48,561 nt of DNA, taken from Nitrosopumilus sp. Nsub (lineage in GTDB: Archaea; Thermoproteota; Nitrososphaeria; Nitrososphaerales; Nitrosopumilaceae). Location of the stretch: NCBI RefSeq assembly GCF_001541925.1, contig NZ_LQMW01000018.1, positions 1-48,561 on the forward strand, given 5' to 3'. Of the stretch, positions 10,657-37,836 are shown piece after piece (the stretch's first letter is position 1; every line of letters begins with the position of its first letter). Under the pieces are notes generated by a model, which was not told the DNA's origin, ran no database searches, and saw only the letters and a program-made list of their open reading frames with translations. Position numbers and translations under genes: made by a program.

Positions 10657-11739
10657 GTGATAATTAACACAAAATCATCTATTCGTAGACATTCTCCGGT
10701 AATTCATGGGGGAAAAATTCCTTTCAAAAACAGCGATCAGAATATTATTGATTTTAGCTCAAATATCACTCCTTTAGGAGTTCCTAGTTCTGTAAAATCA
10801 ATAATCAAAAAAAATTTTGATAAAGTCCAATTTTATCCTGATCCAAGTTCTGAGAATGTAACTCTAAATTTAGAGAAATATACTCATTTACCAAAATCAA
10901 ATATTATTGTTGGAAATGGTGCAATTGAAATTTTATACAATTTTTGCTATGCCTTTTTATCTAAAACCACTAAAGTGTTAATTCATATTCCGACATTTCA
11001 AGAATATGAGACTGCAGTAAAATTAAATGATTGTAAAATATCTTATTTTAAATCATTAAATCTCTCAACAGAAATGGATTCATTTCTGTCACAAATCCCA
11101 AAAAATGGATGTGTTTTTCTTTGTAATCCTAATAATCCAACTGGAGAATTATTGTCAAAAAAAGAATTGTTGTCAATAATTATCAAGGCAAAAAAATTAA
11201 AAACTTTAGTTTTCATTGATGAATGTTTTATTGAATTAGTACCTGATGGTGATGAATCTGTTATATCCTTTGTAAAAAAATATGACAATCTTTTCATTTT
11301 AAGATCTTTAACAAAATCCTTTGGTTTACCTGGAATACGAATTGGATATGCATGTGGTTCTAAAAAAATAATAAAAATTTTACAAAAAATCAAAATTCCA
11401 TGGAGTGTAAACTCTATTGCACAAGACGCAGCAAATGAAGTAATTAAAAACAAATCTCATATCAAAAAATCTAATTTAATAATTAAGAAGGAATTAAAAT
11501 TTTTGAACAAGAATGTTTCTTCAATTGATGGATTTGAATGTATTTCTTCTTCAACTAATTTTATTTTAATTAAAACAAAATATAATTCAACAAAACTACA
11601 AAAAAAATTATTAAAAAACAAAATTTTAATTCGTGATTGTAAAAATTTTAGAGGATTAAACAACCATTATTTTCGAATTGCTGTTAAATCTCATAAAGAT
11701 AATGTCAAATTGGTATCTGCATTGGAGACAATAAAATGA
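10657..11739 (+). CDS. cobD: L-threonine-O-3-phosphate decarboxylase (CobD), aminotransferase-like
   Basis: PLP enzyme of aminotransferase class I/II fold, 360 residues. The PLP lysine is K220 in LTKSFGLPGIRIGY; CNPNNPTG (156-163) and FIDECF (186-191) are the cofactor-binding motifs. Sequence alone fits either histidinol-phosphate aminotransferase or CobD. A separate hisC lies in the histidine operon at 42.6 kb, while this gene heads a cobalamin operon, and its N-terminus (HSPVIHGGKIPF, then IDFSSNITPLG) matches the CobD opening. It would make the aminopropanol-phosphate arm. The start is GTG at 10657. Its end overlaps cbiP by 4 bases. Confidence 0.85.
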   Translation: MIINTKSSIRRHSPVIHGGKIPFKNSDQNIIDFSSNITPLGVPSSVKSIIKKNFDKVQFYPDPSSENVTLNLEKYTHLPKSNIIVGNGAIEILYNFCYAFLSKTTKVLIHIPTFQEYETAVKLNDCKISYFKSLNLSTEMDSFLSQIPKNGCVFLCNPNNPTGELLSKKELLSIIIKAKKLKTLVFIDECFIELVPDGDESVISFVKKYDNLFILRSLTKSFGLPGIRIGYACGSKKIIKILQKIKIPWSVNSIAQDAANEVIKNKSHIKKSNLIIKKELKFLNKNVSSIDGFECISSSTNFILIKTKYNSTKLQKKLLKNKILIRDCKNFRGLNNHYFRIAVKSHKDNVKLVSALETIK

Positions 11740-12575
11740 AATCTTTGATGATTCAAGGAACCTCTTCAGGTTCTGGAAAAACAACATTAGTTGCTGCCTT
11801 ATGTAGAATTTTTTCAGACAAAGGTTACAGTGTGGCTCCATTCAAGTCTCAAAATATGTCCAATTTTGGATATATTACACCTGATTTTGAAATTTCTCGT
11901 GCTCAAGCAATTCAGGCTTTTGGTGCAAGGTGTGAAATTATGCCAGATTTGAATCCTATTTTATTAAAACCAGTTGGGAACTATTCTAGTGTTGTTTATT
12001 TGAATGGTAAGCGATTTAAAAAAATGCATGCAAAAGAATACTATGAAAAATTTGTAAACACTGAAGGTATGAAATTGGCCTCAAAATCTTTGAAAACTTT
12101 ACAAAAGAATTTTGATTTAGTAATTATGGAAGGTGCAGGTTCTCCTGCAGAAATTAATTTACAGAAATATGATATTGCAAATATGAAAATTGCAAAAAAA
12201 GCAAACGCAAATGTATTATTAGTTACGGATATTGATAAGGGGGGTTCATTTGCTAGTTTAGCTGGAACTATGGCTTTAATAGAAAAACATTATCAAAAAT
12301 TAGTTAAAGGATTTATTTTTAATAAATTTCGTGGAGATATTGATGTTTTAAAGCCAGGATTCAAAAAATTAAAAAATCTTACAAATGTACCTGTGATTGG
12401 AACAATTCCATTAATTTCATTAAATTTACCTGAAGAGGATTCTCTTAATTCTAATCCTAAAGATATTGTTTGGAATAAAAAAAATATTAAAAAAATTGAT
12501 AATGAATTAAACAAATTATCAAAAATTGTTAAATCAAATATGGATATTACATCAATTGAGAAAATGTTGCAATGA
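11736..12575 (+). CDS. cbiP: Cobyric acid synthase ATPase domain only (short CbiP)
   Basis: CbiP amidates side chains of adenosylcobyrinic acid diamide using ATP and glutamine. This 279-residue protein has the P-loop GTSSGSGKTT (9-18), KSQNMSN (38-44), the MEGAGSPAEINL motif (131-142), DIDKGGSFAS (about 166-175) and the LPEEDS motif near 232. It then ends with a helical tail (IDNELNKLSKI). Standard CbiP is about 480 residues, with a C-terminal glutamine amidotransferase domain holding a Cys-His-Glu triad; that half is absent here. The stop overlaps the cbiB start by 4 bases and there is no coding remnant, so this is not a recent frameshift. Ammonia, or a glutaminase in trans, must supply nitrogen if it works as CbiP. 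Confidence 0.85.
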   Translation: MKSLMIQGTSSGSGKTTLVAALCRIFSDKGYSVAPFKSQNMSNFGYITPDFEISRAQAIQAFGARCEIMPDLNPILLKPVGNYSSVVYLNGKRFKKMHAKEYYEKFVNTEGMKLASKSLKTLQKNFDLVIMEGAGSPAEINLQKYDIANMKIAKKANANVLLVTDIDKGGSFASLAGTMALIEKHYQKLVKGFIFNKFRGDIDVLKPGFKKLKNLTNVPVIGTIPLISLNLPEEDSLNSNPKDIVWNKKNIKKIDNELNKLSKIVKSNMDITSIEKMLQ

Positions 12576-33327: not shown

Positions 33328-33678
33328 TCATGAAATCAATTTTGTTATAGAATAGATTACTTGGTTTATTTTTTTTGAATCAATTTTACCAACTTGTTTT
33401 ACTGCTAAATCTTTTTGTAGTGTAAATATATTGCCAATTTTTATTCTACTTTTTTTTGGAATTCTACCTTCTTTCATATCTTTATTTTCTAATAAAATAG
33501 AATTATTTTTGTTATTCAAATTTGATGTAATTCCACAACAAATAAAATCATTTGAGCCTTTGTTGTATGAAATATTTGAAATAACCAATACTGGTCGTAG
33601 TTTTGGTTTGCTCAAATCTGTAAATGGAAACGGTATTAGTACTATTGTACCTCTATCAAACTTTATTCCAGATTTCAT
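33328..33678 (-). CDS. MazF/PemK-family toxin
   Basis: 116 residues of the MazF/PemK endoribonuclease family. The start FDRGTIVLIPFPFTDLSKPK, then LRPVLVIS (32-39), the family hallmark, and CCGITSNL follow the expected beta-barrel order; the C-terminus has the helical end KINQVIYSITKLIS. Toxins of this family cut mRNA at short motifs. Its start lies inside the end of the antitoxin gene (23-base overlap), a normal TA layout in which the antitoxin is translated first. The target sequence cannot be predicted. Confidence 0.85.
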   Translation of the reverse strand: MKSGIKFDRGTIVLIPFPFTDLSKPKLRPVLVISNISYNKGSNDFICCGITSNLNNKNNSILLENKDMKEGRIPKKSRIKIGNIFTLQKDLAVKQVGKIDSKKINQVIYSITKLIS

Positions 33679-33907
33679 CTTCTTTATTATCCCAAAGTTT
33701 TTTTGCAGTTTTTTCAGAAAATTTTATCAAATCTGATTCCATCTCTTTTTCAAGATTTGTTGCTTTTTGAATCAAAAGTTTTTTGTTCTTTGTAGCAAGT
33801 ATGAGATTGTCTCCTTTTTTGATTCCCAATGACTTGCGAATTTCACGTGGAATTGAAATTTGACCCTTTTCTGAAACTTTGATTGTTTTTAGTATTGCTT
33901 CACTCAT
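33656..33907 (-). CDS. AbrB/SpoVT-type antitoxin
   Basis: 83 residues. The N-terminal swapped-hairpin DNA-binding domain is plain: ILKTIKVSEKGQISIPREIR, then SLGIKKGDNLILA. The C-terminal half (EKEMESDLIKFSEKTAKKLW) is the charged tail that wraps the toxin. It likely binds the 16-bp palindrome 8 bases before its ATG, giving autoregulation of the pair. Confidence 0.87.
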   Translation of the reverse strand: MSEAILKTIKVSEKGQISIPREIRKSLGIKKGDNLILATKNKKLLIQKATNLEKEMESDLIKFSEKTAKKLWDNKEDEIWNKV

Positions 33908-33914
33908 ATATTAT

Positions 33915-33930
33915 GTAAGAAATTTCTTAC
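33915..33930 (-). promoter_or_regulatory. Perfect 16-bp palindrome operator of the TA module
   Basis: GTAAGAAATTTCTTAC is a perfect self-complementary sequence located between a TATA-like stretch (about 33932-33946, read on the minus strand) and the antitoxin ATG at 33907. That position covers the expected transcription start, so binding of the AbrB-type antitoxin there would repress the operon. Confidence 0.7.
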
Positions 33931-34055
33931 TTTTAAAATTTAATCATTAATGTCTCATTTTGTGCCTAAATTCACTTTACATAGTTTCCAAATTATCCCA
34001 TTTTGTGTAAAATGGAATCATTATTTCCTATACTGTCTCATCTTCCAAGAAATAG

Positions 34056-34301
34056 AATCAAACCATAAACCATGTTCAATTTATCAGACTAGGCAAAGAT
34101 TATTGGTATGCAGATTCTCCCATTAATGATCAGCACAGTTGGGAAGGATACCTATGGGCAGGATATGGAAATGCTAGAGAAATTGCAAATTTAGAGATCC
34201 GAAAAATGTTAAAAGAGATCAAACTTCATGGAAAAGAATTGCACTTAGAAACTGTTGATAAGATGTCTTTTTATATTTCAGAGAGAATAAGATTACTATG
34301 A
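34056..34301 (+). pseudogene. Start-less coding-like frame, probable gene remnant
   Basis: Open from a TAG at 34053-34055 to TGA at 34299-34301. It reads like real protein: IRLGKDYWYADSPINDQHSW, then EGYLWAGYGNAREIANLEIR, with tryptophans and balanced charge. No ATG, GTG or TTG sits near the beginning of the coding-like part; the only nearby ATG (34072) is out of frame, so one indel may have removed the start. Family unknown. Confidence 0.35.
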
Positions 34302-34381
34302 GCCCAGAAGATGAGAAAATCACAGATGAGTTAATTGAGAAATATTCTGATCTACTAGATGAATTAGCACATGACGATTAA
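34298..34381 (+). CDS. Tiny acidic ORF overlapping the upstream remnant
   Basis: 27 codons starting SPEDEKITDELIEKYSDLLD and ending at 34381. Its ATG overlaps the previous frame's TGA in an ATGA arrangement, which is typical of true archaeal gene pairs. The peptide is helical and strongly acidic, as in small antitoxin-like or adaptor peptides, but it is too short to classify. Confidence 0.3.
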   Translation: MSPEDEKITDELIEKYSDLLDELAHDD

Positions 34382-34544
34382 TCAAAACCTCTACCACACT
34401 CCTAGTTTAGCTCGCAAAACCCTATAGCCATTACTTTGATTATTACATCATACATTCCAAATAATCCTTGAATGCTTTGTTATTTGATTTTGTGAAATGG
34501 TATCCTCATTTCTATATGTATTATTTGAGAAATCCATAAAAATA

Positions 34545-34610
34545 TCACATACTATACTACATACTATATTTTCATAAATAAAAAGATATTTATAATTTTA
34601 TAGTATGTGA
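34545..34610 (+). promoter_or_regulatory. Inverted-repeat operator around the fic promoter
   Basis: Left arm TCACATACTATA (34545-34556) and right arm TATAGTATGTGA (34599-34610) are perfect 12-bp inverted repeats, 42 bases apart. A further direct copy ACATACTATA lies at 34559-34568. The TATA-like AT-rich run at 34586-34598 is between them, and the GTG start of fic is 6 bases after the right arm, so a dimeric repressor bound here could loop and block the promoter. Confidence 0.65.
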
Positions 34611-34616
34611 CCATTT

Positions 34617-35486
34617 GTGGTCATAATAGTAAATGAAAGAGGATTTTATTATTTGAGGCACAACATACAAGGTAAAGAAAAAAGAAAATATCTGGGAAAA
34701 ACAATTCCAAAAAATATAGATAAACTAAAAAGAGAATTTTTACAGAAATTTTATTCTGATGAATGGAGTCCAAAAATTAAAAGTATTTTTAAGAATTATC
34801 AAAAAGAACTAAAAACATTACCTGCATCAATTCAACTACAAAATTTTGAGAGTTTTGGAATAACTTTTACTTATAACACACAACGAATGGAAGGATCCAC
34901 TTTGACACAAGATGATACTAGAGGACTTTTAATTCATGGCATCACACCAAACAAAAAATCTCAAATTGACACAATAGAGACTCAAAGGCATTATGATTTA
35001 TTTATGAAATTGATTAATGCTAAAAAATTAAAAACGATAACACAAGATGTTGTATTGTCCTGGCATGGTGAAATTTTTGAACAAACAAAAATCGGTGAGG
35101 CAGGAAGTATAAGAGCATATAGAGTAGGAATTAAAGGAAATGATGAGATAGAATTTGCAACAGTTCCACAAATTAAACCAAAATTAAAAAAATTATTTAA
35201 TTGGTTAAACAAGTATGATGGGAAAATATCTCCTGTGGAATTGGCATGTATGGTACATTATGAGTTTGTATCAATTCATCCATTTGGTGATGGAAATGGT
35301 AGAGTATCAAGATTGTTGATGAATTATATCTTATTCAAATATAATTATCCGTTAATGCTTATCAAAAATCTCGATAAAAAAGGTTATTTCAAATCCCTTG
35401 AAAAGTCTAGTATGAAAAATGATTCCATGTATTTTCTAAAATGGTTCATGAAATATTATATAAAGTCAAATAAAAAATACATGTAA
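34617..35486 (+). CDS. Fic-domain AMP-transferase, class II (self-inhibited)
   Basis: 289 residues. The Fic catalytic motif HPFGDGNGR (221-229) is complete, so AMPylation activity is expected. An inhibitory motif T-Q-R-M-E-G (88-93) fits [S/T]xxxE[G/N], placing it N-terminal to the Fic core, which makes it class II, with built-in repression by the Glu. The first 60 residues are basic and helical (EKRKYLGKTI) and could touch DNA or RNA. No partner antitoxin gene (FicA/Phd) is adjacent. The start is GTG at 34617, about 25 bases after the TATA-like run, so the mRNA may be leaderless. Confidence 0.88.
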   Translation: MVIIVNERGFYYLRHNIQGKEKRKYLGKTIPKNIDKLKREFLQKFYSDEWSPKIKSIFKNYQKELKTLPASIQLQNFESFGITFTYNTQRMEGSTLTQDDTRGLLIHGITPNKKSQIDTIETQRHYDLFMKLINAKKLKTITQDVVLSWHGEIFEQTKIGEAGSIRAYRVGIKGNDEIEFATVPQIKPKLKKLFNWLNKYDGKISPVELACMVHYEFVSIHPFGDGNGRVSRLLMNYILFKYNYPLMLIKNLDKKGYFKSLEKSSMKNDSMYFLKWFMKYYIKSNKKYM

Positions 35487-35497
35487 ATTCTCACTCA

Positions 35498-35620
35498 TTA
35501 GAAATTTACATTATGTAATTTTTTATCATAACCATACCCAATAGGATAACTGTCAAAGGAATTGACAAATGCTTCTGACATACTCTTTTGGTGAGAATTT
35601 CTTGGAATCAATTTAGTCAT
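35498..35620 (-). CDS. 40-residue ORF with strong Shine-Dalgarno
   Basis: Starts TKLIPRNSHQKSMSEAF and ends in a YPIGYGYDKKLHNVNF tail. A GAGGAG Shine-Dalgarno sits 5 bases before the ATG, and the ATG overlaps the TGAC-TAA end of a short upstream open frame (ATGA-type). Few genes in the window have such a clear ribosome site, which argues that it is translated as a downstream operon member. Function unknown. Confidence 0.4.
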   Translation of the reverse strand: MTKLIPRNSHQKSMSEAFVNSFDSYPIGYGYDKKLHNVNF

Positions 35621-35687
35621 TTTTCTCCTCTTTTTCTTGTAAATACTCTAAAATGGTGTTCTGAGTAGTGCACTTTTTGATGAAAAT

Positions 35688-35834
35688 TCATTTTGCTTTG
35701 ACTTCTCTTGGATGTCTCTGTGTATGTTCTACTAGTCCTTTCATCTCCAGTGCGTCAAGCAGATAGTATATCTTGCTCTGAGGAACTCCTGCATCTTTCC
35801 ACAATCTTCTAGTTTTGGTCATGGCAAAGTACAT
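35688..35834 (-). pseudogene. TrmB-like winged-helix fragment
   Basis: 48 codons. The part WKDAGVPQSKIYYLLDALEM, then KGLVEHTQRHPREVKAK has the recognition helix and wing pattern of TrmB/MarR-type regulators, but it begins in mid-domain and lacks the dimer and ligand parts. The same frame continues past the TGA for 26 more codons up to the TAA just before the 40-residue ORF, suggesting a broken gene or short regulator. It has CTG and GAC codons and about 45% GC in a sampled line, unlike the AT-rich surroundings. Confidence 0.5.
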
Positions 35835-35965
35835 CTAAGTGCTTGATACATACCAATTATGATATTTTTATAATATTGCGATCAAATGTTTTGTGTTAAT
35901 AATACACTGCATGTCAACTAATAATACAACTCAAATGCTTTATGATGTGTATGTTTTAGTACGAT

Positions 35966-37096
35966 GTGATTTTTCAAATCATACATTTACAAATTTTATT
36001 TGATGAATTTTTTATAATTGGTTTGATTGTTTTATTTACTATTTTGGCAATACTAATACCTGTAATTTTTTATCTTATCCAAAAACGTACAATTATTCAA
36101 CTAGAATCTACCCTAAACCCTGATGATACATTTAACCAAAAGATAAAACCCGAATTAACTAGAATCTCTCAAAGAATTGATACAGTTCGTGAAAGTTTTC
36201 CACACTTGGCAATGATTACTGATTTAAAATATGATTTTGAGATTTTAAAATCAAATTTGGAAGAAAATCAATCAAATCTCAAACTAGAGACTGCAAGTCA
36301 AATAAAGGCAATAACTCACACCACTCAAACTCAAATAAAATCTGACGTTGCACAATTTGCAAAAAATCAAATCACTCAAAATACTATTCACAGAGAAGAA
36401 TTTGAAGAATTACGCACAAAAATTGACAATTACTTGAGTGATGATAATAATTTGTCACACATCAACATTCTAAATGAAATATTTGATTCAAAAAAACCTA
36501 GAACTCTAATGTGGCAATGTGATCTACTGGATTTGTTAAAACATGGAATTGCCCCTGAAATTTCACAAGAATTATTACACTCAAAGGCAATCCCATCTAG
36601 TGCATACGTGCCATTTTTAAAAAAATTACACTCAAAAGATATCATTGTACCATCTAATGTAATATCATATCAATTAGATGAGAATTATTGGTGGATATAC
36701 AATTACACAAAAAATCCAGGAGAGCTAAAATCCATTTTAGATTCATCAATAATTAAAGAAAAACAATATCAAGACTATGTGTGCAAAAATCTATCTCAAA
36801 TTGAATCTGATCTATCTTTGTTGCAATCTGAATATTCCTTAAACAGTGGCTCAATTGATTTTCTATGCCTTGATGGAACAGGAAATAATGTGGGATTGGA
36901 ATTAAAATATCCTAAAGCCTCTAAAAGAGATTGTAGACAATTAGATGGCTACAAAAAAGAGTACCTTAGAACTAGTGCATCACTGAATTTTCGTGGAATT
37001 TTAGTGTCTCCTGAAATTTCTGATGATGTAAAAAATGAACTAATACAATACGGATTGGAGTATTGTGAATTATCTATAGATTCTATCAATAAATGA
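35966..37096 (+). CDS. Membrane-anchored coiled-coil protein with NucS-like PD-(D/E)XK nuclease domain
   Basis: 376 residues in three parts. One transmembrane helix near the N-terminus (16-38, IIGLIVLFTILAILIPVIFY), a long coiled-coil stalk (about 45-155), and a C-terminal domain (about 262-370) resembling the nuclease half of NucS/DUF91: Y268-Q-D-Y, then S-G-S-I-D298-F-L-C, G-L-E312-L-K314-Y, and Q325-L-D-G-Y329. D298, E312 and K314 form the D-ExK core and the QxxxY is typical of restriction-type nucleases of this clade. Between stalk and nuclease (about 165-245) is a region reminiscent of a helical domain. NucS itself is soluble and has no such anchor. The start is GTG at 35966. Likely cytosolic nuclease tethered to the membrane, possibly defensive. 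Confidence 0.72.
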   Translation: MIFQIIHLQILFDEFFIIGLIVLFTILAILIPVIFYLIQKRTIIQLESTLNPDDTFNQKIKPELTRISQRIDTVRESFPHLAMITDLKYDFEILKSNLEENQSNLKLETASQIKAITHTTQTQIKSDVAQFAKNQITQNTIHREEFEELRTKIDNYLSDDNNLSHINILNEIFDSKKPRTLMWQCDLLDLLKHGIAPEISQELLHSKAIPSSAYVPFLKKLHSKDIIVPSNVISYQLDENYWWIYNYTKNPGELKSILDSSIIKEKQYQDYVCKNLSQIESDLSLLQSEYSLNSGSIDFLCLDGTGNNVGLELKYPKASKRDCRQLDGYKKEYLRTSASLNFRGILVSPEISDDVKNELIQYGLEYCELSIDSINK

Positions 37097-37761: not shown

Positions 37762-37836
37762 TAGCGGGGAATAGATTTGAACTATTGAACTGCGGGTTAT
37801 GAGCCCGCCGGGATGACCTGGCTTCCCCACCCCGCT
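37762..37836 (-). tRNA. tRNA-Met (CAT), initiator
   Basis: 75 bases on the minus strand, no intron. The acceptor stem AGCGGGG/CCCCGCT is perfect, with discriminator A. The D arm pairs GGGA/TCCC, the anticodon arm is GCGGG-CTCATAA-CCCGC with anticodon CAT, and the T arm is AATAG-TTCAAAT-CTATT. The A1-U72 pair and the three consecutive G-C pairs in the anticodon stem mark an archaeal initiator. CCA is not encoded. Confidence 0.95.

Follow-up and report, generated by a model that had tools for sequence, protein, structure and literature searches.

Results

The cbiP locus

The window – the whole stretch of 48,561 nucleotides of Nitrosopumilus sp. Nsub DNA analysed here – carries a run of cobalamin genes in which cbiP, the predicted gene for cobyric acid synthase, lies between a cobD-like gene and cbiB (Table 1). 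The genes are tightly packed: cbiP shares four bases with the cobD-like reading frame at its 5′ end (11736-11739) and, as the first-pass annotation had pointed out, four with cbiB at its 3′ end (12572-12575). The order cobD-cbiP-cbiB-cobS-cobY is common to the ammonia-oxidising archaea (AOA) examined and to three relatives with a full-length CbiP (G401, G402 and G407), and the cobD-like gene adjoins cbiP in relatives too. In SAT137 the five genes occur in like order with intervening genes; in relatives G115 and G406 we found cobD, cbiP and cbiB, in G449 and G123 cbiP only, and cobY was not found at the cbiP locus of the AOA genomes G209 and G350. In none of the AOA loci examined was there a glutamine amidotransferase (GATase) gene between cbiP and cbiB, or elsewhere in the operon.

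Table 1. Features of the cbiP operon in the window, with the orphan glutaminase g180 found elsewhere in the genome
Feature	Position	Strand	Basis
cobD-like L-threonine-phosphate decarboxylase (aminotransferase fold), 360 aa	10657..11739	+	TIGR01140 E 2.1e-85, slightly below cut-off
cbiP, GATase-less cobyric acid synthase, 279 aa, ATG start	11736..12575	+	NF001989 E 3.6e-98, profile 1-245/480
CbiP ATPase/synthetase domain, residues 1-238	11736..12449	+	Alignments
CbiP variable linker, residues 239-247, site of GATase removal	12450..12476	+	Alignment
CbiP C-terminal tail, helices 248-268 and 271-278	12477..12572	+	Tail profile test, helix pairs in models
cbiB, adenosylcobinamide-phosphate synthase, 323 aa	12572..13543	+	PF03186 E 8.2e-88, TIGR00380
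cobS, adenosylcobinamide-GDP ribazoletransferase, 246 aa	13521..14261	+	TIGR00317 E 3.5e-50
cobY-like nucleotidyltransferase, 194 aa	14258..14842	+	NF045495 E 5e-24, below cut-off
g180, orphan class-I GATase, 180 aa	G000:C1:100957-101496 (L094:4958-5500)		GuaA-like, below all cut-offs

Elsewhere in the window, genes for a PemK/MazF-like toxin (33328-33678, minus strand), a Fic/DOC protein (34617-35486, plus strand) and a protein with a NucS C-terminal domain (35966-37096, plus strand) form a close group ahead of a tRNA-Met gene (37762-37836, minus strand). The cluster at 33328-37096 may be a small variable island.

A domain removed from within

Evidence that the window CbiP lacks its GATase half came firstly from family profiles. 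The match to NF001989 is strong (329.3 bits against a cut-off of 273), with the family's ATPase motif columns conserved, and stops near the middle of the profile; the score against TIGR00313, at 298.9 bits, is below the cut-off of 309.9. Pfam places CbiA/AAA_26 over cut-off and finds no GATase_3 (PF07685) in the protein, which bears out the first-pass view that this half is missing. The motifs of the ATPase – the P-loop GTSSGSGKT, FKSQNM, EGAGSPAEINL, DIDKGG and NKFRGD – are recognizable in alignments.

The same annotation had the protein end after the ATPase domain, and here it needs correction: a C-terminal helix pair of about 30 residues is kept after a variable linker. In an alignment of 34 CbiPs the AOA tail pairs with the extreme C-terminus of the full-length protein, downstream of the GATase. 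A profile of the final 45 residues, built from 76 full-length CbiPs outside the AOA and compared with 676 control C-termini, placed 46 of 49 AOA tails above the best control and three below it (AOA median 22.3 bits, lowest 6.0); the best control, at 10.9 bits, is a reading frame in locus L005 that was itself retrieved through a weak CbiP match. Judged by sequence, the last 30 or so residues of AOA CbiP are thus homologous to the full-length C-terminus and, since this tail is retained, the GATase – about 200 residues in relatives – was cut out internally.

Our sequence search for a solved CbiP ATPase structure returned none. The AlphaFold2 model of the window CbiP is confident as a stand-alone protein (mean pLDDT 92.1, pTM 0.91) and weak at residues 237-239; the model of a full-length euryarchaeal CbiP (L217) scored pLDDT 91.8 and pTM 0.91, and both finish in a similar helix pair. 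Of 71 named loci that were usable, 46 entered structure alignment A2 and 42 entered A3; locus L266 was dropped for want of a usable reading frame.

Distribution among ammonia-oxidising archaea

Two samples were drawn, one of 398 genomes from the phylum and one of 121 from the order. In all 73 phylum-sample genomes of families f1, f2 and f3, which we take to be Nitrosopumilaceae, Nitrosocaldaceae and Nitrososphaeraceae, the CbiP frame measures 273-329 aa, the gene of one genome (G382) being split over two frames; more distant members of the phylum with a clear CbiP match have mostly 460-634 aa. The length comparison that the first-pass annotation had proposed finds the short state in all sampled members of f1-f3, and open frames of like size across them agree with its judgement that no simple frameshift is involved.

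In the order sample CbiP exceeded the cut-off in 70 of the 121 genomes: 53 short forms (24 in f1, six in f2 and 23 in f3), 14 full-length and three others. A working CbiP GATase is absent from all 56 AOA of this sample, having been excised in 53 and being dead in three, and the 14 full-length CbiPs, from genomes without amoA, all keep the catalytic Cys and His. The amoA gene was found in 55 of the 121 genomes, all of them f1, f2, f3 or f67 – that is, in 55 of 56 AOA versus none of the 65 others – and G475 is the only genome of these four families to lack it. No amoA-bearing genome of the order sample has an intact CbiP GATase, and G475 is the only amoA-less genome of that sample with an over-cut-off CbiP whose GATase is dead or excised. 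The link to amoA involves archaea only and, because it concerns one clade, counts as a single event without replication.

Several individual genomes deserve separate mention. In G463 (family f3) amoA matches lie at four places, on C12, C15, C27 and C29; two span 171 of 183 positions, and the other two, on separate contigs, are short stretches of the C-terminus that may stem from copies divided by contig ends. G219 (family f49) has a full-length CbiP with a cysteine-rich small domain (PF04071) fused at its N-terminus (L116:6233-8125). Outside the AOA, G359 (family f62) encodes a distant CbiP-like ATPase of 304 aa that has neither a GATase nor the QNMS/DIDRGG motifs (L125:4978-5892) and is probably a different enzyme. 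CbiP-like frames of about 310-320 aa occur in G133 and G246.

Intermediate forms

The first-pass annotation had named orthologues of full two-domain length as evidence that would count against it. Among AOA we found such a length only in two Nitrosomirales genomes (G398 and G411, family f67), and a shortened GATase domain in a third genome, G431, of the other genus in f2. All three have lost catalytic residues, which strengthens the case for loss of the GATase. In G398 and G411 the GATase is of normal length, GICGGYQ has become GICEGF(A/I), GYEIHMG is lost, and the His of the YxHG motif is Tyr; in G431 the catalytic Cys is replaced by Asp. G411, SAT137 and L200 have an identical CbiP region and the same amoA place and are one and the same, and the Nitrosomirales evidence comes from two genomes. 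SAT137 is reported to belong to Ca. Nitrosomirales, sister to Ca. Nitrosocaldales (PMC10811736).

Full-length controls numbered 93 (78 named bacterial and archaeal loci and 15 from the phylum, with L200 left out; eight are also among the 14 full-length CbiPs of the order sample). All 93 have both the Cys and the YxHG-motif His; in three the other motif His, that of GYEIH, is replaced by Arg. From its motif and its full conservation the YxHG His would be catalytic. In GatD, replacement of either Cys or His by Ala is reported to have suppressed residual glutaminase activity (PMC6085368); by analogy, the GATase domains of G398, G411 and G431 are very probably dead.

History of the loss

An IQ-TREE phylogeny of 51 ATPase-domain rows groups all AOA CbiPs in one clade, with support 99/92, beside non-AOA relatives. 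The AU test did not reject a single clade of all excised AOA (p 0.43), nor did it reject the grouping of f2 with f67 (p 0.21). Excision may thus have happened once or twice, with two events needed if f2 is a true clade.

The ATPase domain has itself changed. Among 67 columns in which 90% or more of 99 full-length sequences agree, ten are changed in more than 20% of 49 AOA sequences, and in two of the ten the common residue is kept by no AOA sequence. Residue 43 of the window CbiP, which is Leu in 96 of the 99, is changed in 47 AOA sequences and gapped in two; residue 86, Gln in 92 of the 99, is changed in all 49. Both positions are also changed in the dead-GATase rows (four rows, representing three distinct genomes), which indicates that the changes accompany inactivation and not deletion alone.

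On balance, and with no great assurance, we favour a history in which the GATase domain became inactive when archaeal ammonia oxidation arose, or close to that point, and was later excised, possibly more than once. The trait would then be ancestral to, and diagnostic of, the AOA, their B12 pathway obligately ammonia-dependent, and Nitrosomirales together with one f2 genus (Nitrosocaldaceae-like) living intermediates.

Glutaminases that might serve CbiP in trans

The next question is where the short enzyme obtains its nitrogen. By PF00117 and PF07685 the Nsub genome encodes ten class-I GATase proteins, eight assigned (TrpG, GuaA, CarA, PyrG, HisH, PdxT, PurQ and CbiA) and two orphans (g180 and g227); the first seven were assigned from sequence, length and neighbours, and family-library scans were made for g180, g227 and CbiA. 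A general loss of glutaminases was considered and rejected, given that eight other class-I GATase proteins remain. The loss in CbiP is specific, because CbiA and the seven other GATase-bearing enzymes are kept. For the same reason plentiful ammonia, to which the first-pass annotation had appealed, is not a sufficient cause: all eight assigned enzymes keep their GATase in the same genome.

The own-genome matches to PF07685 number three, CbiA and the proteins read as PdxT and PurQ. Across the order sample a strong non-CbiP GATase_3 match of CbiA length occurs in 53 of 56 AOA, G477 having only part of the domain; weaker matches there were taken for PdxT, PurQ and similar proteins. Among the matches listed there is no short stand-alone GATase_3 protein in the AOA of the 121-genome sample and, CbiP remnants aside, CbiA is their only protein with a full GATase_3 domain.

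The first-pass annotation had offered a two-part synthase as one option. A separate GATase_3 protein, as just described, is not among the matches listed, and there is none in the operon, but an orphan class-I GATase does exist in g180, the most plausible candidate for a glutaminase acting in trans, with CbiP and g180 working in the manner of MurT and GatD. This protein is present (E <=1e-27) in 54 of 56 AOA versus three of the 65 other genomes of the order, carries Cys and His-Pro-Glu motifs, and has no assigned synthetase. However, it resembles PF00117 and GuaA proteins, not those of the GATase_3 family. Its immediate upstream neighbour in each of the five AOA genomes inspected (from f1, f2 and f3) is a UPF0182-type gene, which Pfam identifies in Nsub and which is 44-85% identical to that one in the other four, and cob genes are found only farther away or on other stretches. 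It also occurs in G405 and G416, where no CbiP exceeds the cut-off, and in G413, where CbiP is intact. Its neighbour and its presence in two genomes without a CbiP over cut-off make g180 a weak candidate, and we regard a two-part enzyme as unlikely.

The second orphan, g227 (G000:C10:107467; L095:803-1486), is a GATase of 227 aa, PRK07053-like but below cut-off; the gene just upstream, in the same orientation, has a sequence resembling glutamate dehydrogenase. G401 and G407, which have a full-length CbiP, hold proteins of similar size with a PF00117 match, though orthology to g227 is not implied.

A loan from CbiA, which might share its glutaminase with CbiP in a complex or hand over ammonia locally, strikes us as quite improbable. 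CbiA is, among the matches listed, the one protein besides CbiP with the full domain, and, in the only cross-genome comparison of catalytic residues made among the retained GATase enzymes, its Cys and His were kept in 20 of 20 AOA proteins covering the region. Against such a loan, cbiA of Nsub belongs to a separate cob cluster on another contig, and the strong non-CbiP GATase_3 match is missing from three of 56 CbiP-bearing AOA (G398, G465 and G469, none of them a closed genome). Moreover, GATases normally feed one synthetase via a closed tunnel, which counts against sharing.

Signs that the short enzyme works

A third alternative is that the short protein has lost its activity or taken on another role, with side-chain amidation completed by another enzyme or bypassed by salvage of cobyric acid or cobinamide. 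The activity of AOA CbiP is a prediction, and two otherwise conserved residues, 43 and 86, are changed in all aligned AOA (with the gap at 43 in two of 49 noted above). Yet the gene remains in an aminopropanol-arm operon, the synthetase motifs are intact, with their residues falling among invariant columns, and substitution patterns indicate purifying selection on cbiP. Median dN/dS, in values that are rough because dS is near saturation, is 0.12 overall, 0.096 in the ATPase domain, 0.58 in the linker (residues 239-252) and 0.31 in the tail, as estimated from 29 sequences (27 of the window's genus, including its own, and two of genus g4), with 254-286 of 406 pairs usable per region. In addition, cobalamin and alpha-ribazole features are reported from N. 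maritimus medium, in a comparison of culture with control media, both without added B12, and with growth on 1 mM NH4Cl (PMC8281238). From the purifying selection, the intact motifs and these cobalamin features, AOA presumably complete the four corrin amidations; the selection, the confident model and the features in the medium suggest that the short CbiP works, and we think an inactive or repurposed protein very improbable indeed.

That cbiP of Nsub was broken by an assembly or sequencing error, which the first-pass annotation had considered at position 12570, is so improbable as to be negligible, since the length of 279 aa recurs at 28 further loci within the family (26 from the window's genus and two from genus g4), some from single-contig genomes such as G096 (1,645,259 bp), and the frames are open across f1-f3.

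Discussion

The window CbiP is, in our judgement, probably a functional cobyric acid synthase whose dependence on ammonia is secondary. With the glutaminase lost and the partner candidates weak, free ammonia is the simplest nitrogen donor, and its direct use – the other option raised by the first-pass annotation – is the best explanation. Synthetase domains of glutamine amidotransferases are often able to use ammonia, and CobQ itself reportedly has such an activity. In this scheme (adenosyl)cobyrinic a,c-diamide would be phosphorylated by the ATPase domain at its b, d, e and g carboxylates; free NH3 in solution would then attack each acyl phosphate, yielding cobyric acid without glutamine. As to how this state arose, the GATase catalytic residues would have been lost before the domain itself, with inactivation dating to, or close to, the last shared ancestor of the AOA sampled. 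In the excised forms a short linker now connects the ATPase domain with the C-terminal helices of the original protein.

Comparison with known systems places the enzyme more precisely. To CobQ/CbiP (NF001989, TIGR00313) it is orthologous by sequence, tree and synteny, having the same ATPase domain, C-terminal tail and operon position; it differs in that GATase_3 is absent from most AOA and catalytically dead in Nitrosomirales and G431. Dethiobiotin synthetase, BioD, shares the fold of AOA CbiP and is likewise a stand-alone ATPase with no GATase; it takes CO2 and a diamine as substrates in place of ammonia and corrin carboxylates. BioD structures (1dts, 1dbs) provide the nearest solved fold to the AOA CbiP model (E 4.8e-10, 18% identity).

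Ammonia-dependent amidation has parallels elsewhere. Single-domain NAD synthetases are reported to take free ammonia in vivo (PMC3376133), and NadE type N may be likened to AOA CbiP as an ATP-dependent amide ligase without a glutaminase and with free ammonia as donor; it is of an unrelated family, however, and its single-domain form is taken to be ancestral (PMC3376133), whereas that of AOA CbiP would be a secondary loss with intermediates. Dph6, the diphthine-ammonia ligase (DUF71), is described as performing an archaeal ATP-dependent amidation with ammonia (PMC3541065), but is a PP-loop ATPase of other fold and substrate than CbiP. In MurT/GatD, according to the available accounts, synthetase and glutaminase are likewise separate polypeptides, the latter being a relative of the cobyric acid synthase glutaminase (PMC5871853, PMC6085368); GatD is a separate partner, whereas among the matches listed AOA have no such GATase_3 protein. 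There, ammonia as donor is reported still to have needed the GatD protein (PMC6085368), so that synthetase halves are not always able to work alone.

AOA are counted among the main producers of marine cobalamin (PMC4303638), a view from work that used TIGR00313 (cbiP/cobQ) as a marker; the available text of that paper makes no mention of the half-length state of the AOA protein. A literature search confined to titles and the openings of abstracts, with subscription journals thinly covered, brought up no evident report of a GATase-less AOA CbiP. Such a protein affects annotation that relies on length or on the GATase, and metagenomic markers likewise. Should ammonia dependence be borne out, AOA would possess a naturally simplified B12 enzyme and, together with their relatives, offer living forms at each stage from an intact through a dead to a deleted GATase. 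Their B12 output would be tied to ammonia, depending directly on intracellular NH3 and pH.
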